Source: Solwaraspora sp. WMMD406 | GTDB taxonomy: Bacteria > Actinomycetota > Actinomycetes > Mycobacteriales > Micromonosporaceae | Direction of reading: 5' to 3' | NCBI RefSeq assembly: GCF_029626025.1 | Contig: NZ_JARUBF010000001.1 | Coordinates: 1,860,001 to 1,924,000 of the forward strand | Length of the DNA: 64,000 nt | Part shown: positions 7,055 to 19,104 of the stretch, piece by piece | How positions within the stretch are numbered: position 1 is the stretch's first letter | Layout: the number at the start of each line of letters is the position of its first letter | Position numbers and translations under genes: made by a program | The notes under the pieces: generated by a model | Databases searched by the model: none | What the model was told of the DNA's origin: nothing | What the model saw: the letters and a program-made list of their open reading frames with translations, nothing else

Positions 7055-7225
7055 GTCTGCTCCTTCACCGGAGAACGAGGTGCCCGTCGGATCCCGCCCA
7101 CCGTACGGCGGGCGGGCGACGAAATCCATCTCGGACGAGTCGTTTCCGGGTGGCGGGTGTCCATAGCAGACGCCTGGGGGTGGTCGGCCGAGGTGCGGGC
7201 GGTGTCGGCCGACCGGTGAGCTTAA

Positions 7226-7243
7226 TGAAAACGGCTTCCGTTA
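7226..7243. promoter_or_regulatory. Zur-like box 1, before rpmF-cobW
   Basis: TGAAAACGGCTTCCGTTA, with AACG/CGTT half sites 5 bases apart. It matches four further copies in this locus (8797, 10301, 14609, 19488). Position and gene content (alternative L32, COG0523 GTPase, zinc importer) identify it as a probable binding site for the zinc repressor Zur. Confidence 0.8.
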
Positions 7244-7285: not shown

Positions 7286-7465
7286 ATGGCCGTACCGAAG
7301 CGCCGCACCTCGCGGTCGAACACCCGCCACCGTCGCGCCCAGTGGAAGGCGGCGGCACCGACGCTGGTCACCTGCCCATGCCCACGACAGGAGAAGATCC
7401 TGCCGCACCGGGCCTGCGCGCACTGTGGCTTGTACCGGGGGCGCCAGATCGAGGATCCGCGATGA
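7286..7465 (+). CDS. rpmF: 50S ribosomal protein L32, zinc-responsive paralogue
   Basis: A 59-aa L32: [20 protein letters not shown] at the N-terminus and the zinc-ribbon half [10 protein letters not shown] at 44-53. The first knuckle, normally CxxC, is CPC (C30, C32), so metal binding may be weakened. ATG at 7286 has GAGGGAGG upstream, and the stop overlaps the next start (ATGA, 7462-7465). Being under a Zur box and coupled to a zinc GTPase, it fits the alternative ribosomal proteins that replace zinc-binding copies when zinc is scarce (known for Zur regulons). It has fewer than 60 codons and is easily missed. Confidence 0.9.
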
Positions 7466-8799
7466 GCGGCTCCGCGGCCGGCGAGGTGGCCAACGAGACG
7501 GTCGGCTCCGCTGCCGGCGAGGTGGTCGAGGACCGCCGGCTGCCGGTGACGGTGCTGTCCGGCTTCCTCGGCGCGGGCAAGACCACGCTGCTCAACCACA
7601 TCCTGGCCAACCGGGAAGGGCTACGGGTCGCGGTCATCGTCAACGACATGAGCGAGATCAACATCGACGCCGCGTTGGTACGCGACGGCGGCAGCCTGTC
7701 CCGTACCGAGGAGCGGCTGGTCGAGATGACCAACGGCTGCATCTGCTGCACGCTGCGCGACGACCTACTGGTGGAGATCGCCCGGCTGGCCCGCCAGGGC
7801 CGCTTCGACTACCTGGTGATCGAGTCCAGCGGTATCTCCGAGCCGCTGCCGGTGGCGGCCACCTTCGCCTTCGGCACCGACGACGGCGGGGTGTTGGCCG
7901 ACATCGCCCGGCTGGACACCATGGTGACCGTGGTCGACGCGCCGCACCTGATCGCCCAGCTGCGGGCCGGTGAGTCGCTGGAGCAGCGTGGGCTGGCTGC
8001 CTACGAGGACGACGACCGCACCATCGCCGATCTGCTGGTCGACCAGATCGAGTTCGCCGACGTGATCCTGATCAACAAGACCGACCTGGTCGCGCCGGCC
8101 GACCTGGCGACGGTCGAGGCACTGGTGACCAGGCTGAACCCGAAGGCCCGTCAGCTGCGGACGGTCCGGGCGCGGGTGCCGATGGCCGAGGTGCTCGACA
8201 CCGGACGGTTCGACCTGGAGGCCGCCGAGACCGCGCCGGGCTGGGTCGCCGAGCTCAACGGCGACCACGTGCCGGAAACCATCGAGTACGGCATCAGCAG
8301 CATCGTCTACCGGGCGGTCACGCCGTTCCACCCGCAGCGGCTCTGGGATCTGCTCGCCGAGCTGGACACCTTCGGCGTCGTACGGTCGAAGGGTTTTCTC
8401 TGGTTGGCCACCCGCCCGGACGTGCAGGCACTGTGGTCGCAGGCCGGTCCGTCGGCGCGGTGCGATCCGGCGGGGGTGCCGGTGGCCAGCTCGGGTGAGT
8501 GGCCGGACGACCCGGCCGAGCGGGCCGACCTGGAGTCCCGGTGGGATCCGGTCTTCGGGGACCGGTGCCAGGAGCTGGTGTTCATCGGCATCGGACTGGA
8601 CGCAGAGCGGCTACGTGCGGCGCTGGACGGTGCTCTGCTCACCGGCCCCGAGCTGGCGGCGGCCGGAGCGGGGCTGGCGGCCGGGCTCGTCGCGTGGCAC
8701 GAGTTGCCGGATCCGTTTCCGGATTGGGATCTCGGCGAGCTGGACGAACATGGTCATGTGTCGAGCCAGACGACGCGTACCCCTATCGCTGCTAGGTGA
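7462..8799 (+). CDS. COG0523/CobW-family zinc GTPase
   Basis: A 445-aa G3E-family GTPase: Walker A in [12 protein letters not shown] (33-44), the metal-binding CxCC motif GCICCTL (93-97), guanine-specificity NKTD, and a CobW C-terminal domain after residue 280. Zur-controlled members act as zinc chaperones that load target enzymes in zinc starvation. The start at 7462 overlaps the rpmF stop by ATGA. The stop TGA (8797-8799) is also the first triplet of the next Zur box. The first 25 residues carry a low-complexity repeat (GSAAGEV twice) outside the GTPase fold. Zinc rather than cobalt or nitrile-hydratase function is inferred from context. Confidence 0.88.
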
Positions 8800-8814
8800 A
8801 AACGATTACCGTTA
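8797..8814. promoter_or_regulatory. Zur-like box 2, before CAM gene 1
   Basis: TGAAAACGATTACCGTTA; it begins at the stop codon of the GTPase gene and lies 45 bases before the start of the first CAM-domain gene. Same half sites and spacing as box 1. Confidence 0.8.
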
Positions 8815-8858: not shown

Positions 8859-9545
8859 GTGTTGACCGCAACTCGGCGGCGCGCCGCTGCTGCCCTGGTG
8901 GCCGGCGCGGCGATGGTCGCGGCGTTGACCGTCTCGGCCGCTCCGGCGCAGGCCCACGGCGTCACGCTGCCGGCGATCCTGACCGCCGGACACGTCGACG
9001 TGATCGAGGTGGAGTACGAGGACGGCGAGCTGGAGCTCGGCGTACACGACGACACCGTCGAGCCCCCCGTGCACCGCGACCCCGACGACGTGATCTTCGT
9101 CGTCAAGCCTCAGGCCAAGACCACCGTCCCCAGTGATCCTGCCTTCGGGTTCCTCGGCACGGCTGGCTCGCCGGTCTGGATCCTGCCGCAGGTGGAGAAC
9201 GAGGAGCTGCTCTTCGCCGGTATCGCCACCGAGGAACTCGAGACGGGTGTCTTCGACGGCGACTCGCTCGACCTGACCGTGCAGCAGCTGATCAGCGCTC
9301 CCAGCTCCGCCAAGGTGGCGATCTACACCGAGGATCTGTTCGGGCAGCCCACCGTACTGGCCAACAGCCGAGACGGCCTGCCGGACGTCGTCGACCTGCC
9401 GGTCGGCGAGCACCTGCACGTCAACTGGGCGTTCAGCAAGGCCGGCGTCTACCTGCTCAAGGTCAAGGCCAGCGCCACCCTCGCCGGCACCACGACCGTC
9501 GTCGAGTCCGACTCGGTCTACCTGCGATTCGTCGTCCTGCCCTGA
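8859..9545 (+). CDS. Secreted choice-of-anchor M (CAM) domain protein 1
   Basis: A 228-aa exported protein: signal peptide 1 to about 33 (RRRAAAALVAGAAMVAALTV, cleavage after AQA), then one complete CAM domain (actinobacterial surface-anchored repeat). Domain landmarks: LTAGHVDV, PDDVIFVV, FGFLGTAG, VWILPQ, DGLPD and HLHVNWAF. It has no anchor of its own, so it is probably released or held by partners. The HxHxNW motif recurs in other CAM proteins here and may bind zinc (inference). GTG at 8859 has AAGGAG upstream. Zur box 2 precedes it and the second CAM gene follows at 29 bases, forming one transcript. Confidence 0.85.
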   Translation: MLTATRRRAAAALVAGAAMVAALTVSAAPAQAHGVTLPAILTAGHVDVIEVEYEDGELELGVHDDTVEPPVHRDPDDVIFVVKPQAKTTVPSDPAFGFLGTAGSPVWILPQVENEELLFAGIATEELETGVFDGDSLDLTVQQLISAPSSAKVAIYTEDLFGQPTVLANSRDGLPDVVDLPVGEHLHVNWAFSKAGVYLLKVKASATLAGTTTVVESDSVYLRFVVLP

Positions 9546-9574
9546 TTCGGGCCGGATCGGAAGGGAGCAGCGTG

Positions 9575-10228
9575 ATGAACCTCCGTATCCGTCGCTGGTC
9601 GGCGGCCGTCGCATCGAGCCTGCTGGCCGCGGCGCTGGCGGTCGTCGCGCCGGCCCCGGCGCACGCCACCATCGTGGAGCTGACCAGCGGTCATGTCGAC
9701 GTCCTTGACGTGGACCATGTCGCCGGTGGGCCGATCGTGGTCAGGGTCGGCGACGACACCGGTTCGACTATCGTCTATCGGGATCCTTCCACCGTGGTCT
9801 TCGCGGTGCCGTCCGCCGCGTACGTCGCGGTGCCGTCCGCCTCGGCCTGGTCGTTCCTCGGCACCGGTGGGTACGCCTACGTGTTGCCGCAGACCAACGT
9901 TTCCGGCCTGCTCTGGGCCGGCTGGGACACCACCGGGGTGGCCAGTGGCGCCCTGCAGTTCAACCGGGTCACGTTCAAGCTGACCGACGTGCAGGGGCCG
10001 GGCGGGTTCAGCGTGTTCACCGCTTCCGGTGGCACCCCCACCGTGTTGTTCGACAGCGGTAACGGGCTGCCGGACAGTCTCAACGTCAACCGCAACACGC
10101 ACGCCCACCCCAACTGGGGCTTCGACGTCGCTGGCACCTACGTGGCGACATTCGAGGTCAGCGGGGTGCGGACGTCGAACGGGCAGACGGTGAGCACGAC
10201 CGAGGAGTTCACCTTCGAGGTCGGCTGA
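9575..10228 (+). CDS. Secreted CAM-domain protein 2
   Basis: A 217-aa protein with a signal peptide ending AHA (about 31), then a single CAM domain: LTSGHVDV, STVVFAVPS, WSFLGTGG, YVLPQ, GWDTTG, NGLPD and HAHPNWGF. It is shorter and less acidic than CAM1 and has no membrane anchor. ATG at 9575 has GGGAG at 7 bases; the adjacent GTG at 9572 is too close. It is the last gene of the box 2 transcript and is followed by a hairpin at 10250-10282. Confidence 0.83.
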   Translation: MNLRIRRWSAAVASSLLAAALAVVAPAPAHATIVELTSGHVDVLDVDHVAGGPIVVRVGDDTGSTIVYRDPSTVVFAVPSAAYVAVPSASAWSFLGTGGYAYVLPQTNVSGLLWAGWDTTGVASGALQFNRVTFKLTDVQGPGGFSVFTASGGTPTVLFDSGNGLPDSLNVNRNTHAHPNWGFDVAGTYVATFEVSGVRTSNGQTVSTTEEFTFEVG

Positions 10229-10282: not shown

Positions 10283-10300
10283 CGGAGGTCTGAACTGACA

Positions 10301-10318
10301 TGAGAACGGTTTTCGTTT
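10301..10318. promoter_or_regulatory. Zur-like box 3, before the zinc transporter operon
   Basis: TGAGAACGGTTTTCGTTT, 50 bases before the substrate-binding protein gene. AACG/CGTT half sites as in the other boxes. Confidence 0.78.
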
Positions 10319-10367: not shown

Positions 10368-11945
10368 GTGCGCAGCGTACGGGGGCTCATCGGGTCGATC
10401 CTGATAGCCGTCGGCCTGACCGGCTGTGCGGTCCCACCGACGCTGAGCGCCGCCGACGACCGTCTCCAAGTCGTCACCACCACCGGCATCCTGCGGGACC
10501 TGGTCGACAACGTCGGCGGCGACCGGGTCGCCGTCGCCTCGCTCGTCCCCGACGGCGCCGACCCCCACTCGTACGAGCCGTCCCTGCGCGACGTGCGCAA
10601 CGTCGTCTACGCCGACGTCGCCTTCAGCAACTACCTGCTGCTGGAGGAGCACGCCATCATCAAGGCGCTCGACGCCAACCTGCCCGACGGCGTACCGAAC
10701 ATCTCCCTCGCCGAAGGCGCCGTCAAGTACGCGGCCGAGATCATCCCGCTGGTCGAGAACGTCGCGCTCGACACCATCTGGCTCGGCATGCGGGTCCGCG
10801 GCACCGGCGAGACCTACGGCGCCGACCGGGCCTCCGACATCCTGCTGCGGAGCACCGCCGTGACCGGGCCCGGCGCGATGGCCGCCTACCTCACCGAGTC
10901 GTTCGGCAACCCGGCCGTCTACCTCGACTCGGCCGACGGGTTCGACGCGGCCACCGGTTACCGGGACGACACCGCCACCCTGCCGGCTGACGCGCACACC
11001 CACATGAGCTGGGCCTTCACCGAGCCGGGCGTCTACCGGCTCACCATGTCGGCGCGGCTGGCGGTCACCCCCGACAGCCGCCCGGTCGCCCTCGGGGAAC
11101 AGACCTTCACCTTCGCCGTCGGCGTCGACCCGCACAGCGTGCCCGGCATGGCCGGTGCCGAGGTGCTGCGCGGCGGGCACGCCGACATCACCGTCGACCT
11201 CGACGCTGCGGCGCGCGGCGAGCCGTCGCTGTACCTGTTCGCCGACCCGCACGGCGGCGGCGGGGCCCACCAGCACGTGCACGACCCGGCCGACACCGTC
11301 ATCGAGGTACCGAACAAGGCCCTCGCCCAGGTGCCTGCCGGGCGGGACTTCCGGTTCCTCGGCCGCCCCGGCACCGAGATCTTCCAGCTGCCCCAGGCGG
11401 TGCTCGGCAGACACGTACACGGTGAGATCGACCCGCACCTGTGGCAGAACGTCCGAAACGTGATCGCCTACGTCGAGCTGATCCGCGACACCCTGATCGG
11501 CGTCGACCCCGACGGGGCCGCCGAATACCGCCAGCACGCCACCGCGTACATCGCCGAACTGTCGGCGCTCGACGACCACGTACGGGACACCATCGCCCGC
11601 ATCCCGCCCGCCCGGCGGCACCTGATCACCACCCACGACGCGTTCGGTTACCTCGGGGCCGCGTACGACGTGCAGATCTCCGGGTTCGTCACCCCGCACC
11701 CGGCGGCCGAACCGAGCCTGGCCGACCGGCGTCGGCTCACCGAGACGATCCGCAACCTGCGGGTGCCGGCGGTGTTCCTGGAGCCCAACCTGCGGTCGCG
11801 GTCGTCGACGTTGACCGAGCTGGCCGACGACCTCGACGTGCGGGTCTGCGAGATCTACGGCGACACGTTCGACGACCGGGTGACCAGCTACGTCGAGTTG
11901 ATGCGGTTCAACGCCGAGTCGCTGCTCGACTGCCTGGCACCGTGA
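10368..11945 (+). CDS. Anchored-repeat zinc ABC transporter substrate-binding lipoprotein with CAM insert
   Basis: A 525-aa lipoprotein (lipobox LTGC, C20). Residues 30-125 are the N-lobe of a ZnuA-type (cluster A-I) binding protein with DPHSYEP (H67). Residues about 348-525 are the C-lobe with DPHLWQ (H357), TTHDAFGYL (H423) and YGDTF (D499), a plausible His3Asp zinc site. Residues about 126-345 are a CAM-type insert whose halves are swapped: first the C-half (TGPGAMAAYL, HTHMSWAF), then the N-half (RGGHADI, ADTVIEV, FRFLGRPG, FQLPQ). The insert sits where ZnuA proteins have their His-rich loop and itself contains a His-rich DPHGGGGAHQHVHD. It corresponds to the 'anchored repeat ABC transporter, substrate-binding' family. 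GTG at 10368 is the start. Confidence 0.88.
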   Translation: MRSVRGLIGSILIAVGLTGCAVPPTLSAADDRLQVVTTTGILRDLVDNVGGDRVAVASLVPDGADPHSYEPSLRDVRNVVYADVAFSNYLLLEEHAIIKALDANLPDGVPNISLAEGAVKYAAEIIPLVENVALDTIWLGMRVRGTGETYGADRASDILLRSTAVTGPGAMAAYLTESFGNPAVYLDSADGFDAATGYRDDTATLPADAHTHMSWAFTEPGVYRLTMSARLAVTPDSRPVALGEQTFTFAVGVDPHSVPGMAGAEVLRGGHADITVDLDAAARGEPSLYLFADPHGGGGAHQHVHDPADTVIEVPNKALAQVPAGRDFRFLGRPGTEIFQLPQAVLGRHVHGEIDPHLWQNVRNVIAYVELIRDTLIGVDPDGAAEYRQHATAYIAELSALDDHVRDTIARIPPARRHLITTHDAFGYLGAAYDVQISGFVTPHPAAEPSLADRRRLTETIRNLRVPAVFLEPNLRSRSSTLTELADDLDVRVCEIYGDTFDDRVTSYVELMRFNAESLLDCLAP

Positions 11946-11955
11946 GGAGGAATCA

Positions 11956-12894
11956 GTGAAGTCGATCGGCCTGTCGATGGCCGTGTCCGCGCTACTGGCG
12001 CTGACGCTGGCCGCCCAGCCTGGATTGCCCGCCGCCCAGCCCGGGTCGCCCGATCCGGCGCTGGACCAGTCGATCGCCCCGGACCAGCCGGTCGCCGAGG
12101 GACCGGCGGTGCTCGCCGCCGGCCACGTCGACCTGGGGCCGCGCTACGTCGACGACGAGTGGAACCTGCTGATCCACGACGACGCCGCGCAGCCGGTGTG
12201 GCGGGATCCGGACCGGACCGTGCTGCAGGTCACCGACGCCGCGCTGCGGGCCGTTCCGGACGACCCGGTGTACGGCTTCCTCGGCGTACCGGCCGGGACC
12301 GAGGTGCACGTGGTGCCGCAGGTGCAGCACCCCGACGTGGTGTGGGTCGGCTGGAACACCCAGGACCCTCGGGTGATGCAGACCATCGACCGGGGCGTGA
12401 CCCTGGAGCTGGCCGGCGTGGACGGTCCCGGCGAGGTCGTCATGTACCTGCAGGACGGCACGTTCAGCGAACCGCAGGTGCTGTGGCGCTCCACCGAACC
12501 ACCCGGCCAGCCGATGTGGGTCGAGGTCAACACGCACACCCACGCCAACTGGGTGTTCACCGCCCCCGGCGTGTACCTGATCGCCATCCGGGCCAGCGCC
12601 GACCTGGTCGGTGGCGAGCAGGTCTCGGCCACCCGGCACCTCCGGTTCGCCGTCGGCGACGCGACCAGCACCGACGACGCGCTCACCGCGCAACCCGACG
12701 AGGTCGCGGCGCCGCCGCCGGCCGAGCCGGACCCCGCCGGGGCGGACGACGCCGACGACGCTGGTGGCACCGGTCCGTGGCTGGTCGTCGGCCTCGTCGT
12801 GGTCGCCGTCGGGCTGGCCGGCGCGCTGGTCGTCGTGGTGCTGCGCGGGCGGGCGGTACGCCGTCGGGTCGAACAGGAGCGTGCCGGATCGTGA
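11956..12894 (+). CDS. Membrane-anchored CAM-domain protein of the zinc transporter
   Basis: A 312-aa protein with a signal peptide (about 1-27), a full CAM domain (LAAGHVDLGP, DRTVLQV, YGFLGVPAG, VHVVPQ, WVGWNTQ, HTHANWVF), a Pro/Ala/Asp-rich stalk (about 225-265) and a C-terminal membrane helix followed by RGRAVRRR. It should sit on the outer face of the membrane next to the importer. GTG at 11956 has AGGAGG upstream; the stop overlaps the ATPase start (GTGA). This is the transporter-associated repeat protein of this family. A role in passing zinc to the lipoprotein is inferred. Confidence 0.85.
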   Translation: MKSIGLSMAVSALLALTLAAQPGLPAAQPGSPDPALDQSIAPDQPVAEGPAVLAAGHVDLGPRYVDDEWNLLIHDDAAQPVWRDPDRTVLQVTDAALRAVPDDPVYGFLGVPAGTEVHVVPQVQHPDVVWVGWNTQDPRVMQTIDRGVTLELAGVDGPGEVVMYLQDGTFSEPQVLWRSTEPPGQPMWVEVNTHTHANWVFTAPGVYLIAIRASADLVGGEQVSATRHLRFAVGDATSTDDALTAQPDEVAAPPPAEPDPAGADDADDAGGTGPWLVVGLVVVAVGLAGALVVVVLRGRAVRRRVEQERAGS

Positions 12895-13679
12895 CCGCGC
12901 TCGCCGTACACGATCTCGACGTCGACCTCGGTGGCCGCCCGGTGCTGCGCGGTGTCGGACTGCACGTCGACCCGGGGGAGTTGGTCGGGCTGATCGGCCC
13001 CAACGGTGCCGGCAAGACCACCCTGTTGCGGTCCGTGCTCGGGCTGATCCGGATCCGGTCCGGGCAGGTGCTGGTCGACGGGGTGCCGAGCCGGCCGGGG
13101 CGGTGCGCGATCGGGTACGTGCCCCAGCGGCACGAGTTCGCCTGGGAGTTCCCGATCTCGGTGCAGGAGGCGGTGCTCAGCGGCCGTACCGGTCGGATCG
13201 GGCTGCTGCGGCGACCGGGGGCGGCCGACTGGCGGGCCACCGCCGAGGCGATCGACCGGGTACGCCTGGGCGATCTGCGGCGCAGGCCGGTCGCCGAGTT
13301 GTCCGGCGGCCAGCGCCAGCGGGTGCTGGTGGCCCGCGCGTTGGCGTTGCAGCCGGCGTTGCTGCTGCTCGACGAGCCGTTCACCGGGCTGGACATGCCG
13401 ACTCAGGAACTGCTCGGTGAGCTGTTCGCCGGCTTGGCGGCCGAGGGTACGCCGTTGTTGATGACCACCCACGACCTGATCGGGGCGATGGACGCCTGCT
13501 CCCGGCTGGTGCTGCTGAACCGGCGGGTGATTGCCGAGGGCAAGCCGACCGAGCTGCGGGATCCGCAGCTGTGGATGCGGACGTTCGGGATCAGCGAACG
13601 GTCACCGTTGCTGCGTCTGGTCGGTGCCGGCGTCGACACCGCAGCCGTGGCCGCCGCGTCCGGTGAGGGGAGCGGCTGA
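12891..13679 (+). CDS. Anchored-repeat zinc ABC transporter, ATPase
   Basis: A 262-aa ABC ATPase: Walker A GPNGAGKTT (about 35-43), Q-loop YVPQRHEF, signature LSGGQRQR, Walker B LLLLDEP and the switch His in TTHD. The order and sequence match zinc/manganese (ZnuC-like) import ATPases. It overlaps the CAM gene upstream (GTGA at 12891) and the permease downstream (TGATG at 13677-13681), so all three are translated together. Confidence 0.92.
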   Translation: MTALAVHDLDVDLGGRPVLRGVGLHVDPGELVGLIGPNGAGKTTLLRSVLGLIRIRSGQVLVDGVPSRPGRCAIGYVPQRHEFAWEFPISVQEAVLSGRTGRIGLLRRPGAADWRATAEAIDRVRLGDLRRRPVAELSGGQRQRVLVARALALQPALLLLDEPFTGLDMPTQELLGELFAGLAAEGTPLLMTTHDLIGAMDACSRLVLLNRRVIAEGKPTELRDPQLWMRTFGISERSPLLRLVGAGVDTAAVAAASGEGSG

Positions 13680-14608
13680 TGTCGATCACCGAGTTCATCG
13701 CCGACCTGTTCAATCCGGATTTGGCGTTCCTGCCGAAGGCGCTGCTGATCGCGGTCATGTCCAGCGTGGTCTGTGGCGTGGTCGGCTGCTACGTGGTGTT
13801 GCGCGGGATGGCGTTCATCGGTGACGCCGTGGCGCACGCGGTGTTCCCCGGGCTGGCGGTCGCCTTCGTGCTGCAGGGCAGCCTCGTGCTCGGCGGCGCG
13901 GTCGCCGGGATCGTCACCGCGTTGCTGATCGCGGTGTTCGCCCAGCGGCGCCGGCTCAAGGAGGACTCTCTGATCGGGGTGTTCTTCGTGGCCGCCTTCG
14001 CCCTGGGCATCGTGATCATCTCGCAGGCGCCGGGGTACGCCGGTTCGCTGCAGCAGTTCCTGTTCGGTTCGATCACCGGCATCCCGGACCGGGACCTCTA
14101 CACAGTGGGCTTCACCGGCCTGGCGATTCTCTCGGTGTTGTTCCTGCTGCACAAGGAACTGGTCGCGGTCAGTCTCGACCGGGAGTCGGCCCGGTCGGTC
14201 GGGTTGCCGGTGTTCTGGTTGGACATCGTGCTGTACGTGCTGGTCACCCTGGCTGTGGTGATCTCGTTGCAGACGATCGGCAACATCCTGGTCCTGGCGT
14301 TGCTGGTCACCCCGGCGGCGGCGGCCCGGCTGCTCACCGACCGGCTCGGCGTGATGATGCTGCTCGCCCCGGTGATCGGCGGCGGTTCGGCGCTGGTGGG
14401 GCTGTACCTGTCCTGGAGCTACGACCTGCCGGTGGGCGGCACGGTCGTGCTGGTGGCGACGGCGGTGTTCCTGCTGGCCTGGGTCTTCGCCCCGCGTCAC
14501 GGCCTGCTCGCCCGTCGCCGTCGAGAGCCGGAGCGAGAGCCGGTCGGGGTGCCGGAGTCCCAGGTCACACCGGTGCTGGCAGAGGTGACCGAACGGCCGA
14601 TGGGATAA
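13679..14608 (+). CDS. Anchored-repeat zinc ABC transporter, permease
   Basis: A 309-aa integral membrane protein of the ZnuB/ABC-3 family with eight or so hydrophobic helices. The conserved block VVLRGMAFIGDAVAHAVFPG near residues 38-57 is the ABC-3 hallmark with a transport-path Asp/His pair. A cytoplasmic tail after residue 280 is Arg/Glu-rich. It is the last gene of the box 3 operon; its TAA stop directly abuts Zur box 4. Confidence 0.92.
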   Translation: MSITEFIADLFNPDLAFLPKALLIAVMSSVVCGVVGCYVVLRGMAFIGDAVAHAVFPGLAVAFVLQGSLVLGGAVAGIVTALLIAVFAQRRRLKEDSLIGVFFVAAFALGIVIISQAPGYAGSLQQFLFGSITGIPDRDLYTVGFTGLAILSVLFLLHKELVAVSLDRESARSVGLPVFWLDIVLYVLVTLAVVISLQTIGNILVLALLVTPAAAARLLTDRLGVMMLLAPVIGGGSALVGLYLSWSYDLPVGGTVVLVATAVFLLAWVFAPRHGLLARRRREPEREPVGVPESQVTPVLAEVTERPMG

Positions 14609-14626
14609 TGAAAACGATTCTCGTTA
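14609..14626. promoter_or_regulatory. Zur-like box 4, before CAM gene 3
   Basis: TGAAAACGATTCTCGTTA. It starts one base after the permease stop, and GATAAT at 14604-14609, a possible -10 element, overlaps its edge. The next start is at 14704. Confidence 0.8.
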
Positions 14627-14703
14627 CCGTGCGGTGGGGCTCCCGCCCCGCCACGACCACGTCCCGCACCGGTCCACGGTGCGGGCGAGGGGAGGAACCA
14701 ACA

Positions 14704-16173
14704 ATGAGAACAACAGGTGCCCGCAGGTTCGCGGCCCTGGCCGCAGCGGCGGTGATCGCCGGCGGCGTGATGCTGGCGCCGACCGCCGCAGCCGCCGCCG
14801 AGAAGGTGGTGCTCGCCACGGGCCACACCGACGCCGTCGACGTCCACTACCACGACGGCGAACTGTCCCTGGAGGTGCACGACGACACGGTCAGCCCGTC
14901 GGTCAACCGCGACCCGGCCGACGTGATCTTCCAGGTGCTGCCCGAAGCCGCCATGGCGGTGCCGGACGACCCCCGGTTCGCCTTCCTCGGCCCGGCCGGC
15001 TCCCAGATCTGGCTGCTGCCGCTCACCCAGGACCCGGACCTGCTCTGGCCCGGCTGGAACACCACCACCCTCGGCTCCGGCGTCTTCACCGGGGACAAGG
15101 TCCGGATCAGCCTCGTCGACGTCACCGGACCAGGAAACGTCTGGGTGTTCACCCAGGACAGCTTCGGTGGGCCGATCATGAAGTTCCGCAGCGACGACGG
15201 CTTGCCGGACGGCATCGACGTACCGATCCGCACCCACGCCCACGCCAACTGGGCGTTCAGCGCGCTCGGCGACTACACGCTGACCTTCCAGGCCGATGCG
15301 ACCCTGACCGACGGCACGACCGTCAGCACCGGACCGGTCGACTACTCGTTCGTCGTCGGCGAACTCGGCGGCACCGGTCCGGAAACCGTGCTGAGCATCG
15401 CCGGCATGGCCGACGAGTACCAGCCCGGCGACACGGTCACCCTGCAGGCGGTGCAGACCCCGCAGACCGAGCTGGACCACTACCACTGGTTCAGCCGCTG
15501 CCCCGGCTCCGACGACTTCGCCATCATCCCCGGCGAGGCCGGCGCGACCTACAGCTTCACCGCCACCCGTGAGCTCAACGCCTGCGAATACCAGGTGAAG
15601 CTCTACGACGACAACCACAGCGTCGTCGCGACCAGCGCGGAGGTCTGGCTCTGGGTGGCCTTCACCCCGACCGACCCGAGCGCCTCGCAAACCATCACCG
15701 CGTCCATCGACCCCACCCAGGGCGCGCTGGTGATCAGCGTCGACCCGGACGACCGCAGCGTCGTCCTGCCACCGGCGCAGCTGACCAGCGGCGGTGACAG
15801 CTGGGAGAGCACCGGAAGCCTGCGTCCGGTGACCGTCACCGACACCCGGGCCGGCACCCCCGGCTGGAGCGCCTCCGGCCAGCTGCCGGAGAACTTCACC
15901 GGACCCGACGGTGCCACCTTCAGCTCCGGCTACCTCGGCTGGACTCCGCAGGTGGTCGACCAGTCCGCCGGCCAGGGCGTCGTCGCGGGTCCGGTCGTCG
16001 AGCCGTACGTCGTCGGCGTCGGCGGCGGACTCGGCAACAGCGCCGTACTCGGCTCGGCGCCGACCGGCGTGGGCCGGGGCACCGCGACCCTCTCGGCCGG
16101 CCTGCAGCTGCGCTTGCCGACCGAGACCGTGCCCGGCACCTACACCGCGACCCTCACCCTCACCGCGATCTGA
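14704..16173 (+). CDS. Secreted CAM-domain protein with WxL-like C-terminus
   Basis: A 489-aa exported protein: signal peptide to about residue 31, CAM domain (LATGHTDAVDVHYHD, ADVIFQV, FAFLGPAG, WLLPL, LWPGWNT, HAHANWAF) to about 225, a linking Ig-like part with two cysteines (RCPG, NACEY), then a C-terminal domain of about 150 residues ending PGTYTATLTLTAI. That ending and the GWSASGQLP and YLGWTPQV stretches resemble WxL-type cell-surface domains, and the next gene is a DUF916 protein, the usual WxL partner. ATG at 14704 has GGGGAGG upstream. Surface attachment through the WxL-like module is inferred. Confidence 0.8.
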   Translation: MRTTGARRFAALAAAAVIAGGVMLAPTAAAAAEKVVLATGHTDAVDVHYHDGELSLEVHDDTVSPSVNRDPADVIFQVLPEAAMAVPDDPRFAFLGPAGSQIWLLPLTQDPDLLWPGWNTTTLGSGVFTGDKVRISLVDVTGPGNVWVFTQDSFGGPIMKFRSDDGLPDGIDVPIRTHAHANWAFSALGDYTLTFQADATLTDGTTVSTGPVDYSFVVGELGGTGPETVLSIAGMADEYQPGDTVTLQAVQTPQTELDHYHWFSRCPGSDDFAIIPGEAGATYSFTATRELNACEYQVKLYDDNHSVVATSAEVWLWVAFTPTDPSASQTITASIDPTQGALVISVDPDDRSVVLPPAQLTSGGDSWESTGSLRPVTVTDTRAGTPGWSASGQLPENFTGPDGATFSSGYLGWTPQVVDQSAGQGVVAGPVVEPYVVGVGGGLGNSAVLGSAPTGVGRGTATLSAGLQLRLPTETVPGTYTATLTLTAI

Positions 16174-16190
16174 CGATCGCACCGGTGACC

Positions 16191-16226
16191 GGCCGGGCGA
16201 TGGCAGTCCACCGCCATCGCCCGGCC
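16191..16226. terminator. Intercistronic hairpin
   Basis: Bases 16191-16204 pair perfectly with 16213-16226 (14 bp, 8-nt loop) between the CAM/WxL-like gene and the DUF916 gene. It could lower expression of the downstream gene or stabilise the upstream mRNA. Confidence 0.55.
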
Positions 16227-16255
16227 CAACCTCCGAACCGGAACGGACCACCCGC

Positions 16256-17413
16256 ATGCGTAAGCCCGCCGCCCTGGCCACCGGACTCCTGCTCGCCGCC
16301 GGACTCCTGGCCGGACCGGCACCGACGGTGCCGCCCGCACCCGAGCTGGCGTCCGCCGCCGCCCAATCGCTCACCTGGGGCGTGGCCCCGTCCAGCCCCG
16401 AGGGCCCGAACGGACGACCGGCCTTCGAGTACAAGCTCGACCCGGGCGCGACTCTCACCGACTACGTGGCGATCAGCAACCACTCTGACCAGCCGATCAC
16501 CCTCGACGTGTACGCCAGCGACGCGTTCACCACCGACCAGGGCGGCTTCGACCTGCTGGCCGCCGACACCGCATCGGTCGACGTCGGCGCCTGGATCACC
16601 TTACCTGCCCGTACCATCACCGTGCCCTCGACGTCACGGCTGGACGTGCCGTTCACCATCACGGTGCCGGACAACGCCACGCCCGGTGACCACCCGGGCG
16701 GCATCGTCGCCTCGCTCGCCGCCACCGGCACCGACGAGCAGGGCAACCAGGTGGCGGTCGACCACCGGGTCGGCTCCCGGGTCTACCTGCGGGTCACCGG
16801 CGAGCTGCGACCAGCGCTCGACGTGGCGGACCTGTCGATCACGCACGACGGCACCTGGAACCCGATCGCTGGTGGCACCGTCACCGCGACCTTCACCGTG
16901 CGCAACACCGGCAACGTACGGCTGACCGGGCAACCGGACCTCGCCGTCGCCGGCCCGTTCGGATCGGCCAGGCGGACCGCGTCCGGTGACCAACTACCGG
17001 AGATCCTGCCCGGCGACAGCTTCCAGACATCGGTCCGGGTCGACGGCGTACCGCCGTTGTTCCGGCTCGGTGCCCAGCTCACCGTCGAGCCGGCTGCCGT
17101 CACCGACGACGTGCTTGATCCTGCCCCGGTGACCGTCGTCCGCGAGCGCGGCCTGTGGGCCGTTCCGTGGCCGCACCTGGTGTTCCTGCTGCTGCTCGGC
17201 CTGGTCGGCTGGCTCGTGGTCGCGCGTCGACGCAAGAGCCGCTCCCGGCAGGCCGCCCAGCTCGAACAGGCCGTCGCCGCCGCGCGGGAACAGGGCCGCG
17301 CCGAGGCCGCACGCGACCAGAGCGGCACCGAATCCGTACCCGACCAGCGCCGCGCTGAAGCCGTAGCCGATCAGACCGCCGCCAGCGCGCAGCCCACCCG
17401 TACCGCTGACTGA
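16256..17413 (+). CDS. DUF916 (WxL-interacting) membrane protein
   Basis: A 385-aa protein: signal peptide to about 34, a DUF916 peptidoglycan-binding domain (SLTWGVAPSSPEGPNGRPAF at its start, then VAISNHSDQPITLDVYASDA), a second beta domain (about 190-290), a membrane helix near 305-325 and a basic, then Glu/Gln/Ala-rich cytoplasmic tail. In Firmicutes these proteins hold WxL proteins at the wall. ATG at 16256 begins the clear signal peptide. It follows the CAM/WxL-like gene and probably anchors that protein. Confidence 0.83.
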   Translation: MRKPAALATGLLLAAGLLAGPAPTVPPAPELASAAAQSLTWGVAPSSPEGPNGRPAFEYKLDPGATLTDYVAISNHSDQPITLDVYASDAFTTDQGGFDLLAADTASVDVGAWITLPARTITVPSTSRLDVPFTITVPDNATPGDHPGGIVASLAATGTDEQGNQVAVDHRVGSRVYLRVTGELRPALDVADLSITHDGTWNPIAGGTVTATFTVRNTGNVRLTGQPDLAVAGPFGSARRTASGDQLPEILPGDSFQTSVRVDGVPPLFRLGAQLTVEPAAVTDDVLDPAPVTVVRERGLWAVPWPHLVFLLLLGLVGWLVVARRRKSRSRQAAQLEQAVAAAREQGRAEAARDQSGTESVPDQRRAEAVADQTAASAQPTRTAD

Positions 17414-17436: not shown

Positions 17437-19104
17437 ATGAACATGTTCCGCCGCGCCGTCGCTGCGGCGACCCGACCCCGGCCCGCCGCCGTGACGGCGG
17501 TGTCAGCGCTGGTCGCCGCGCTGATCGCGCCGGCCGCGCCGACGACCGCGCCGTCGACGTCGGCGGCCCACGAACGGGCGTCGGTCGACCCGGTGTCCAG
17601 CCCGGTGAGTGCCGCCGGTACCGACCTGGTGGCGGTCGCGCTCGACGGCGAAACGCTGTCGGTGGTCACCCGCGAGTCACCGGCCGACCGTCGTGGGGCG
17701 TCCGGTGCCGACCGGCGGCCGGCGACGGTGGTCTTCGGGCCGGCGGGCGGGGTGACGGTACGGACTCCTGACCATCCGGCGTTCCGGTTCCTCGGCGGGG
17801 CCGGCCGGCCGATGTGGGCGTTGACCGGCGGCGACTACGACTTCCCGTACCTCGACACCCGGTCGGTGCCGCGCGGCGCGGTGCGCGGTGACGCGGTCGA
17901 GCTGTCGCTACGGCAGGTCGACGGTCCGGGCGGTTTCGCCGCGTACACCCTCGGTGCGCTCGGCCAGCCGACGCCGCTGTTCGGCACCCTCGACGGGATG
18001 CCACGTGCCGTCCGGCTGCCGACCGCGACCAGGACCGGCGGCCTGGTCTGGCTCTTCGACGCCGCGGGTGACTACCGACTGACGCTGTCGGCGGCGGCGA
18101 CGCTGGCCAGTGGCGAGGAGGTGGTCGCCGAGGCCGTCTACCAGGTATCGGTTCCACGGCTTGAGATGGCCGACGCCCAGCCGGCGCCGATCCCGGCTCC
18201 GGCAGCCGACCTGTCGAGGGCGGCCGGTGCCATGGCGGCCGAGGTCGAGCCGCTCGTCGCCGACCCGCCGCCGCTGGCGGCGGCTGCCGCGCCGACGGCG
18301 ACAGCGACGCCCAGCGCCGCCGCGCCGCTCGCGGCGGCGGCGGCCCAGCAGACCGGGTCACGGGTTGTCATCGACGACGGTCACGTCGACATGGGGCCGG
18401 AGCTCGTCGGATCGGACTGGACGATCCGTCTCAAGGACGACACCGTGTCACCACCGGTGTGGCGGGAACTCGCCGACGTGGTGCTGCATGCCAAGGACAA
18501 CGCGAAGATCACCGTACCGGAGGGTGCTGGCTTCCTCGGCGATCCCGGTGACGAGGTGTGGCTGCTGCCGCAGGGTCAGCGCTCCGGGATCGTCTGGCCG
18601 GGCTGGAACACCCAGCATCCGTCCGTCGTGTCTGGCATCGATGGCCCGGTCACCTGGACGTTCAAGGGGATCGACGCTCCGGGTCGGTTCGCGCTCTTCC
18701 TGACCGGCTCGTTCGGTGAGTCCGAGGTGCTGTTCGATTCCTCGGCCAGCCTGCCACAGCAGCTCGACATCCCGAGCAACACCCACGCCCACGGCAACTG
18801 GGCGTTCAGCCAGCCGGGCATCTACCGGTTGGGCTTCGAGATGTCGGCCACCACGTCGTCGGGGTCCAGGGTCACCGACACCAGGACGCTCACCGTGGCG
18901 ATCGGTGACGACACGGACCCGAACGACGGCTTCGGCCCCGGTGGTGGCAGCCCCGGCGGCGGCAGCCCCGGCGGCGGCAACCTGCCACGGACTGGATCGT
19001 CGTGGCATCTGCCGGCCACCGGAGCCGTGTTGGTGATCGCTGGTGCCCTGGTGATGTTCACCGCGCGTCGGCGGCGTCCGACTCAGCCTCAGTGTTCGTC
19101 GTAG
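17437..19104 (+). CDS. LPXTG-type wall protein with two CAM domains
   Basis: A 555-aa protein: long signal peptide (to about 45), CAM domain 1 (about 60-245), an Ala/Pro-rich spacer, CAM domain 2 (about 310-480: DDGHVDMGPE, FLGDPGDEV, WPGWNTQ, HAHGNWAF), a Gly/Ser/Pro linker, then the sorting signal LPRTG (about 516) with membrane helix and RRRR tail. It should be covalently attached to peptidoglycan by a class E-type sortase. Domain 1 has lost the histidines (TRTGGLVWLF in place of HxHxNWxF) and the GHVD motif, so only domain 2 keeps the putative metal motif. It corresponds to the wall-anchored repeat protein of this transporter family. Confidence 0.87.
   Translation: MNMFRRAVAAATRPRPAAVTAVSALVAALIAPAAPTTAPSTSAAHERASVDPVSSPVSAAGTDLVAVALDGETLSVVTRESPADRRGASGADRRPATVVFGPAGGVTVRTPDHPAFRFLGGAGRPMWALTGGDYDFPYLDTRSVPRGAVRGDAVELSLRQVDGPGGFAAYTLGALGQPTPLFGTLDGMPRAVRLPTATRTGGLVWLFDAAGDYRLTLSAAATLASGEEVVAEAVYQVSVPRLEMADAQPAPIPAPAADLSRAAGAMAAEVEPLVADPPPLAAAAAPTATATPSAAAPLAAAAAQQTGSRVVIDDGHVDMGPELVGSDWTIRLKDDTVSPPVWRELADVVLHAKDNAKITVPEGAGFLGDPGDEVWLLPQGQRSGIVWPGWNTQHPSVVSGIDGPVTWTFKGIDAPGRFALFLTGSFGESEVLFDSSASLPQQLDIPSNTHAHGNWAFSQPGIYRLGFEMSATTSSGSRVTDTRTLTVAIGDDTDPNDGFGPGGGSPGGGSPGGGNLPRTGSSWHLPATGAVLVIAGALVMFTARRRRPTQPQCSS

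Follow-up and report, generated by a model that had tools for sequence, protein, structure and literature searches.

Gene content of the locus

The window, that is, the whole stretch of 64,000 nucleotides that was analysed, belongs to the 7.16 Mb genome of Solwaraspora sp. WMMD406. It contains a cluster in which a substrate-binding lipoprotein is found together with ABC transporter components and several CAM proteins (positions are those of the window, with the matches behind each assignment in brackets):

7450 to 8799, + strand: CobW/COG0523-type GTPase (Pfam cobW, E 6.5e-56; CobW_C, E 1e-21)
8859 to 9545, + strand: CAM1, secreted single CAM protein, normal order (NF038134 positions 2-184; AlphaFold model)
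9572 to 10228, + strand: CAM2, secreted single CAM protein, normal order (NF038134 positions 2-184)
10368 to 11945, + strand: substrate-binding lipoprotein, ZnuA-like (TIGR03772, E 2.7e-236, profile positions 1-486 of 486)
11956 to 12894, + strand: CAM3, a ZnuE-like protein whose single CAM is accompanied by a hydrophobic C-terminal segment and a charged tail (NF038134 positions 1-184)
12891 to 13679, + strand: ABC transporter ATPase, TIGR03771 (E 6.6e-111; ABC_tran)
13679 to 14608, + strand: ABC transporter permease, TIGR03770 (E 4.6e-141)
14608 to 16173, + strand: CAM4 protein (NF038134 positions 1-184)
17437 to 19104, + strand: two-CAM LPxTG-type surface protein, TIGR03773 (E 2.1e-111; LPXTG_anchor 16.3 bits, cut-off 15.9)

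The partners expected in a TIGR03772 operon, i.e., TIGR03771, TIGR03770 and CAM surface proteins, are thus all present in the window. CAM1 and CAM2 show no visible anchor, their sequences stopping immediately after the domain, and could be soluble zinc carriers. The listed ATG of CAM4 falls within an operator-like site, and the ATG at 14704 is the likelier start. The region 15911-17413 of the window encodes a WxL-interacting-protein-like peptidoglycan-binding domain (PF06030, E 9.6e-14) beside the CAM genes, and similar ones are present in many related loci.

For comparison, the best 80 of 463 relatives of the lipoprotein from genome contigs were taken and, with the protein of the window, make a sample of 81, which is biased to close relatives because only the best 80 of 463 were used. 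The sample contains near-copies (e.g., L103/L105 and L116/L132), in such a way that 53 proteins are left at less than 88% identity, and the CAM counts all come from loci picked for carrying the lipoprotein. In 81/81 of these loci (best 80 of 463 plus the window) a single-CAM frame starts 450 bases or less 3' of the lipoprotein frame, the ATPase and the permease come next wherever the contig reaches, and several CAM proteins are found per cluster.

Zur-like sites

Sites resembling Zur boxes were located with a by-eye pattern:

7225 to 7242, + strand: Zur-box-like site (0 mismatches)
8796 to 8813, + strand: Zur-box-like site (1 mismatch)
10300 to 10317, + strand: Zur-box-like site upstream of the lipoprotein gene (0 mismatches)
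14608 to 14625, + strand: Zur-box-like site (0 mismatches)

With a generic Zur pattern, the window gave 5 matches where 0.86 would be expected, and the cluster accounts for 3 of them. With a tighter pattern and up to 2 mismatches, 10 sites were found in the whole genome against 1 with a reversed control; 6 of them lie outside the cluster, and the count within the cluster is not independent, as the pattern was written by eye from four cluster sites. The cluster sites are Zur-like by resemblance, and actinobacterial Zur sites are described as 21-base palindromes in the accessible part of PMC2823685. The Zur-like sites and the CobW gene suggest zinc as the substrate; the best PDB sequence match of the lipoprotein is a manganese protein. 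One of the sites outside the cluster, at G000:C1:6297910 of the same genome, precedes another CAM gene on the minus strand (G000:C1:6294000-6300000). Another Zur-box-like site, at G000:C1:1066944, lies where a lipoprotein-like frame begins; by eye this frame looks like an iron/cobalamin-type binding protein, and it is followed by a methyltransferase-like frame.

The lipoprotein is a ZnuA-type binding protein

The product of 10368-11945 (+ strand) is a 525-residue lipoprotein with the lipobox LTGC, the Cys20 of which is invariant across 13 aligned rows (alignment A1). It reaches 784.8 bits against TIGR03772 (curated cut-off 350.45) with the whole model covered, being a full-length member of this NCBIfam family (anch_rpt_subst, anchored-repeat ABC transporter substrate-binding protein), and the insert described below lies inside the model. 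The NCBIfam text reportedly describes a binding protein with one copy of the TIGR03769 domain and proposes a substrate relay; TIGR03769 is unable to reveal a permutation, because it has only 41 positions, located in the C-half of CAM.

The lipoprotein also matches Pfam ZnuA (E 2e-64), and the two lobes and His ligands of the ZnuA-type cluster A-I proteins are present, as judged from this match and from the correspondence with published ligands. Against the AztC model it scores 199.9 bits, below the cut-off of 350, so it does not qualify as an AztC. AztC is not known to have an inserted domain. Among the PDB sequences matched by the lipoprotein, a manganese protein comes first and AztC (5w56) second, and when the lipoprotein profile was compared with the MntA chain 5hx7, profile positions 2-69 and 319-491 were aligned. 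The lobes and their putative metal ligands are:

10464 to 10733, + strand: N-lobe, residues 33-122, with His67 in DPHSYEP as probable ligand equivalent (alignment to the N-lobes of MntA and AztC PDB sequences; Pfam ZnuA)
11406 to 11942, + strand: C-lobe, residues 347-525, with probable ligand equivalents His357, His423 and Asp499 (matches to the MntA, AztC and PsaA C-lobes)
11412 to 11438, + strand: HVHGEIDPH, residues 349-357, a conserved HxH beside the second ligand equivalent, His357 (HVHGxxDPHxW)

By analogy with related proteins, Asp499 is presumably the fourth ligand, and the equivalent Asp of a Tyr/His-x-Asp motif is present in 81/81 lipoproteins (best 80 of 463 relatives plus the window). 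In the same sample of the best 80 of 463 plus the window, HVHGxxDPHxW was found in 80/81 and the third-ligand pattern in 79/81, and the first ligand lies in DxH..EP-like contexts, with 66/81 matching a strict DPH pattern and 77/81 a looser one. In the 54 rows of alignment A2, the Asp and His of the first ligand are invariant, and so are the His of the second and third. The assignment of His67, His357 and His423 as likely metal-ligand equivalents follows from their correspondence to H63, H317 and H383 of Corynebacterium diphtheriae ZnuA, as given in the accessible part of PMC12445094, and the spacing from 357 to 423 (66 residues) is the same as that from 317 to 383.

The insert is a circularly permuted CAM domain

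As judged from its NF038134 matches, the insert (residues ~125-345) corresponds to a CAM domain that is complete but circularly permuted:

10740 to 11120, + strand: CAM C-half, placed first, residues 125-251 (NF038134 positions 77-184; own CAM HMM 71-184)
11121 to 11162, + strand: linker from the old C-terminus to the old N-terminus, residues 252-265 (gap between the two HMM matches)
11163 to 11399, + strand: CAM N-half, placed second, residues 266-344 (NF038134 positions 1-73; own CAM HMM 3-75)
10995 to 11003, + strand: HxH motif, His210-Thr-His212 (HxHxxWxF in 81/81, best 80 of 463 plus the window)
11178 to 11186, + strand: HxD motif, His271-Ala-Asp273 (GHxD after HxH in 81/81, best 80 of 463 plus the window)
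11247 to 11288, + strand: His-rich string in the insert, residues 294-307, lineage-specific (His counts of the equivalent loop)

In hmmscan the first piece of the insert (window 10737-11138; residues 135-251) matched positions 77-184 of NF038134 (choice_anch_M) with an E-value of 2.2e-17, and the second (window 11127-11423; residues 266-344) matched positions 1-73 with an E-value of 5.3e-8. Against this model of 184 positions the insert sums 92.6 bits in two stretches, over a cut-off of 55, so that both halves are present; as the N-half does not precede the C-half, it is classed only as a permuted variant of NF038134. The cyclic order is kept, the coverage is nearly full and the old ends are joined through the linker 252-265, as in a circular permutation. 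By contrast, the five neighbouring CAM proteins scanned match positions 1-184 or 2-184 in normal order. The sequence-only reading had proposed that the C-half comes before the N-half, the reverse of the neighbouring CAM proteins, and the succession of matches to 77-184 and 1-73 bears it out; the frame, coordinates and motifs that it gave are also as it described them.

The halves were then swapped in silico. A CAM HMM was built from five CAM domains of the window, and 74 inserts were used, the other 7/81 not being parsed for swapping. When the profile of these 74 inserts was compared with that of 75 CAM domains, the start of the native inserts aligned to template positions 76-188 (E 2.5e-25) and the end to positions 4-80 (E 1.3e-15), and swapping the halves led to a single alignment of 184 columns (E 2e-39), values that exclude chance. 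With this HMM, one full-length CAM match was obtained in 51/74 swapped inserts and in 0/74 native ones, and the best-domain score increased after swapping in 74/74 (best 80 of 463 plus the window). Template positions 76-80, at the end of the LPQ strand, were matched at both ends of the insert, giving an overlap of five positions.

What is directly seen are two separate HMM matches, and these could also be produced by two independent insertions of CAM halves. However, the halves together span template positions 4-188 with the overlap located just at the break, and both of them (three by eye), with both half-motifs, are kept in 81/81 lipoproteins (best 80 of 463 plus the window), so we regard two insertions as very improbable. 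From its sequence, the insert is almost certainly a permuted single CAM domain.

An AlphaFold model of CAM1 (window 8955-9542; pLDDT 97.6, pTM 0.91) places the break in the loop that connects strand 73-77 to strand 86-91. A Foldseek search of the PDB with this model did not retrieve a convincing relative: the one match at E ≤0.001 was a peptidylarginine deiminase with a query TM-score of 0.36, and the highest query TM-score among the 50 matches listed was 0.40. The best values of the CAM profile against PDB sequences were only E 0.29 and 0.7.

The insert occupies the place of the His-rich loop

In the alignment to 5hx7 (MntA) the insert falls in a gap before the DPHxW ligand. An insert-free comparison set was made with the 27 binding proteins found among the matches listed in two genome searches. 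A His-rich stretch just before DPHxW was detected in 16/27 of these relatives (e.g., L026, L030, L031, L044 and L052) and a short loop devoid of it in 8/27 (e.g., L036-L038, L048 and L051), the other 3/27 being uninformative because the pattern matched the first ligand. The lipoprotein shares its family (Pfam ZnuA) and the position of this loop with the His-loop ZnuA-type zinc binding proteins, but has the permuted CAM domain where these have the His-rich loop. The comparison hence supports, from sequence, the earlier proposal that the insert takes the place of the ZnuA His-rich loop, with 16/27 insert-free relatives among the matches listed being His-rich there.

This location would also fit a role as a local zinc collector, in which the insert, as a folded substitute for the His loop, would capture dissolved zinc or buffer it near the cleft with no protein donor. 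The shared place with the His-rich loop of those 16/27 relatives among the matches listed, and the HVH element kept in 80/81 lipoproteins (best 80 of 463 plus the window), speak for this role, but the likely donors encoded alongside share homology with the insert, a single-CAM gene being next in 81/81 loci of the same sample, and we consider a collector that dispenses with protein donors rather unlikely.

Conservation, spread and origin of the permutation

The permuted order was detected in 81/81 lipoproteins (best 80 of 463 plus the window), 78 of them with both halves over the HMM threshold; in the Lentzea rows L115, L116 and L132 the C-half alone is over the threshold, and the N-half was read by eye. 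In the 330 other CAM-bearing frames of the same loci, 409 full domains were all in normal order, with 34 partial matches, and no permuted CAM pair was found among them. A looser rule (gap below 120 residues) called 78/81 lipoproteins and 0/330 other frames as permuted. Twelve further lipoproteins, down to 47% identity, showed the same order in the alignment, at least 4 of them being probably repeat strains of the 80. A sequencing or assembly artefact at the locus, for which no support was found, is already refuted by these independent records, as the same arrangement appears in 80 other loci (best 80 of 463) and in the 12 more, at least 4 of them probably from the same strains; its probability is negligible.

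Lipoproteins over the family cut-off were present in 11/150 genomes of the order and in 3/396 of the phylum sample, the genome of the window being counted in each, and the most similar loci among the best 80 of 463 belong to Micromonospora and Jiangella.

In 81/81 lipoproteins (best 80 of 463 plus the window), HxHxxWxF is followed by GHxD; as a control, both motifs were found in 331/362 normal CAM domains. The spacing from HxH to HxD in this sample of the best 80 of 463 plus the window is of 53-61 residues (median 58), and the linker between the permuted halves has 10-70 residues (median 15). The His-rich string that the sequence-only reading had noticed is indeed found at residues 294-307, but it is not a family trait, since the equivalent loop has at least 3 His in 14/81 lipoproteins and none in 36/81 (best 80 of 463 plus the window). 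The His element conserved in the family is instead HVHG, residues 349-352, beside the DPH ligand. The same reading had suggested that the binding protein may mimic the anchored CAM proteins, which holds as far as the HxH/HxD residues are kept in 81/81 (best 80 of 463 plus the window).

This retention of the motif residues also bears on a role of the insert as a docking platform, an idea raised by that reading as well, in which the permuted CAM would pass no metal and would pair with a wall CAM protein or with the ZnuE-like protein, bringing the binding protein to the zinc donors. That the lipoprotein and the product of the next gene share this domain in 81/81 loci (best 80 of 463 plus the window), and that each cluster has several CAM proteins, would agree with docking; a dock-only domain, however, would not need the HxH/HxD residues that are kept in 81/81 of this sample, and we find this role unlikely.

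In a quick tree of 96 rows, 24 lipoprotein inserts were grouped on one side of a single branch (SH-aLRT 99), which is consistent with a single origin of the insert; long branches meet at the lipoprotein group, and its place among the CAM domains is unsure. An origin in a tandem CAM protein was considered for the insert as well, and is not established. The overlap at template positions 76-80 and the frequent presence of multi-CAM genes near the lipoprotein gene are hints of it, but BLAST best matches and linker lengths point elsewhere: in 58/74 cases the swapped insert was matched best by a single-CAM protein not of the ZnuE type, and the linkers of tandem CAM proteins have at least 36 residues (median 69), against a median of 15 in the lipoproteins.

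Relation to described systems

One of the closest parallels comes from C. diphtheriae, where, in the accessible part of the work by Peng, Lyman and Schmitt (PMC12445094), the ZnuA encoded in the znuAECB-znuFG cluster is described as having a reversed HxD/HxH motif with 45 residues between its elements and, like our lipoprotein, separate ligands (H63, H317 and H383). By that description its motif spacing, 45, is shorter than the 53-61 (median 58) found in the lipoproteins here. The gene order of binding protein, ZnuE, ATPase and permease is common to the C. diphtheriae cluster, as far as it is described in PMC12445094 and PMC6711530, and to this locus; the accessible text of PMC6711530 also reports the homologous cluster to be zinc- and Zur-regulated. 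A search of the main text of PMC12445094 did not return any word starting with permut or insert.

According to the same part of PMC12445094, thermal shift assays show a response of ZnuE, ZnuF and ZnuG to zinc, ZnuF and ZnuG are located in the cell wall, and the His residues of ZnuE are required for growth at low zinc. The zinc response persists in a ZnuE with the motif His residues changed to Ala, so that binding of zinc through the ZnuE motif is not settled by the data given there, and deletion of znuA has a modest growth effect only (PMC12445094).

A second parallel is AztC, a zinc binding protein in which a flexible loop receives the zinc of a partner, AztD, which is a beta-propeller and not a CAM protein (available parts of PMC6689063 and PMC7463823). 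Zinc transfer from AztD reportedly requires this loop and every one of its three His (PMC7463823, in part), and the loop includes His120-Tyr121-His122 (PMC6689063, in part), comparable to His349-Val-His351 of the lipoprotein family.

Hence, the family and its CAM match (NCBIfam) and the reversed HxD/HxH of C. diphtheriae ZnuA (2025, PMC12445094, in the part available) were already known. As far as searched, what is new is that a whole domain is permuted, in all the members examined, at the place of the His-rich loop and with both half-motifs kept. No description of a CAM permutation in this family was found among the titles and abstract openings of the papers listed from the literature searched, which included few subscription journals, nor, in the portions of those sources available, a demonstration that a CAM protein and a TIGR03772 lipoprotein dock or that metal passes from one to the other.

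A proposed built-in zinc acceptor

The permutation, its place and its conservation are demonstrated at the level of sequence. Taking the evidence as a whole, we consider it probable that the lipoprotein carries a complete permuted CAM domain acting as a built-in acceptor for zinc delivered by CAM proteins; for the role of the insert as acceptor or relay in itself, the balance is moderately favourable. In this reading, a CAM domain was opened at the loop after the LPQ strand, its old ends being joined by a short linker, and put into the ZnuA-type loop ahead of the second metal ligand (DPH). The insert would fold as a single CAM sandwich, bind zinc at His210, His212, His271 and Asp273, and stand in for the flexible His-rich loop as a folded built-in acceptor. 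Its donors would be CAM proteins that are secreted, set in the membrane (ZnuE-like) or anchored to the wall. Zinc would pass from them to the permuted CAM site, from which it could move to the conserved HVH element, then to the cleft site (His67, His357, His423 and Asp499) and finally to the TIGR03770/03771 transporter.

The idea of a folded acceptor on the loop derives from the data on the AztC loop and its His residues and from the HVH parallel, as far as they are given in PMC7463823 and PMC6689063, and so it is proposed by analogy. In its favour we count the HxH/HxD residues kept in 81/81 lipoproteins and HVHGxxDPHxW in 80/81 (best 80 of 463 plus the window), the single-CAM gene next in 81/81 loci of the same sample, and the Zur-box-like sites. 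Against it we count the modest effect of the znuA deletion and the zinc response of the His-replaced ZnuE (accessible part of PMC12445094), the 8/27 insert-free relatives among the matches listed that have no His-rich loop, and the fact that the best PDB match is a manganese protein.

An acceptor of this kind would be of interest because little is known of how metals pass across the thick Gram-positive wall to a membrane pump, and a donor-type domain, fused and permuted at the loop that matches the zinc-taking loop of AztC, offers a concrete, testable hand-over site. A permuted insert would also account for the HxD/HxH pair of C. diphtheriae ZnuA being in reverse, and the family provides a natural case in which circular permutation and domain insertion occur together and are kept. 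More tentatively, it is possible that a metal uptake protein, once, turned its flexible metal-catching loop into a permuted copy of the domain of its own donors. Zinc would then travel through a series of like domains from wall to membrane to pump, and fusion and permutation would have turned the final one towards the cleft.

Further CAM-bearing frames were noted in the course of the searches. In Microbacterium marinilacus, six consecutive CAM matches lie in one frame (L100:1576-9240) upstream of the lipoprotein gene, and in the genome of the window a long open frame of 1317 aa (G000:C1:3991365-3992321) shows two CAM-like matches.
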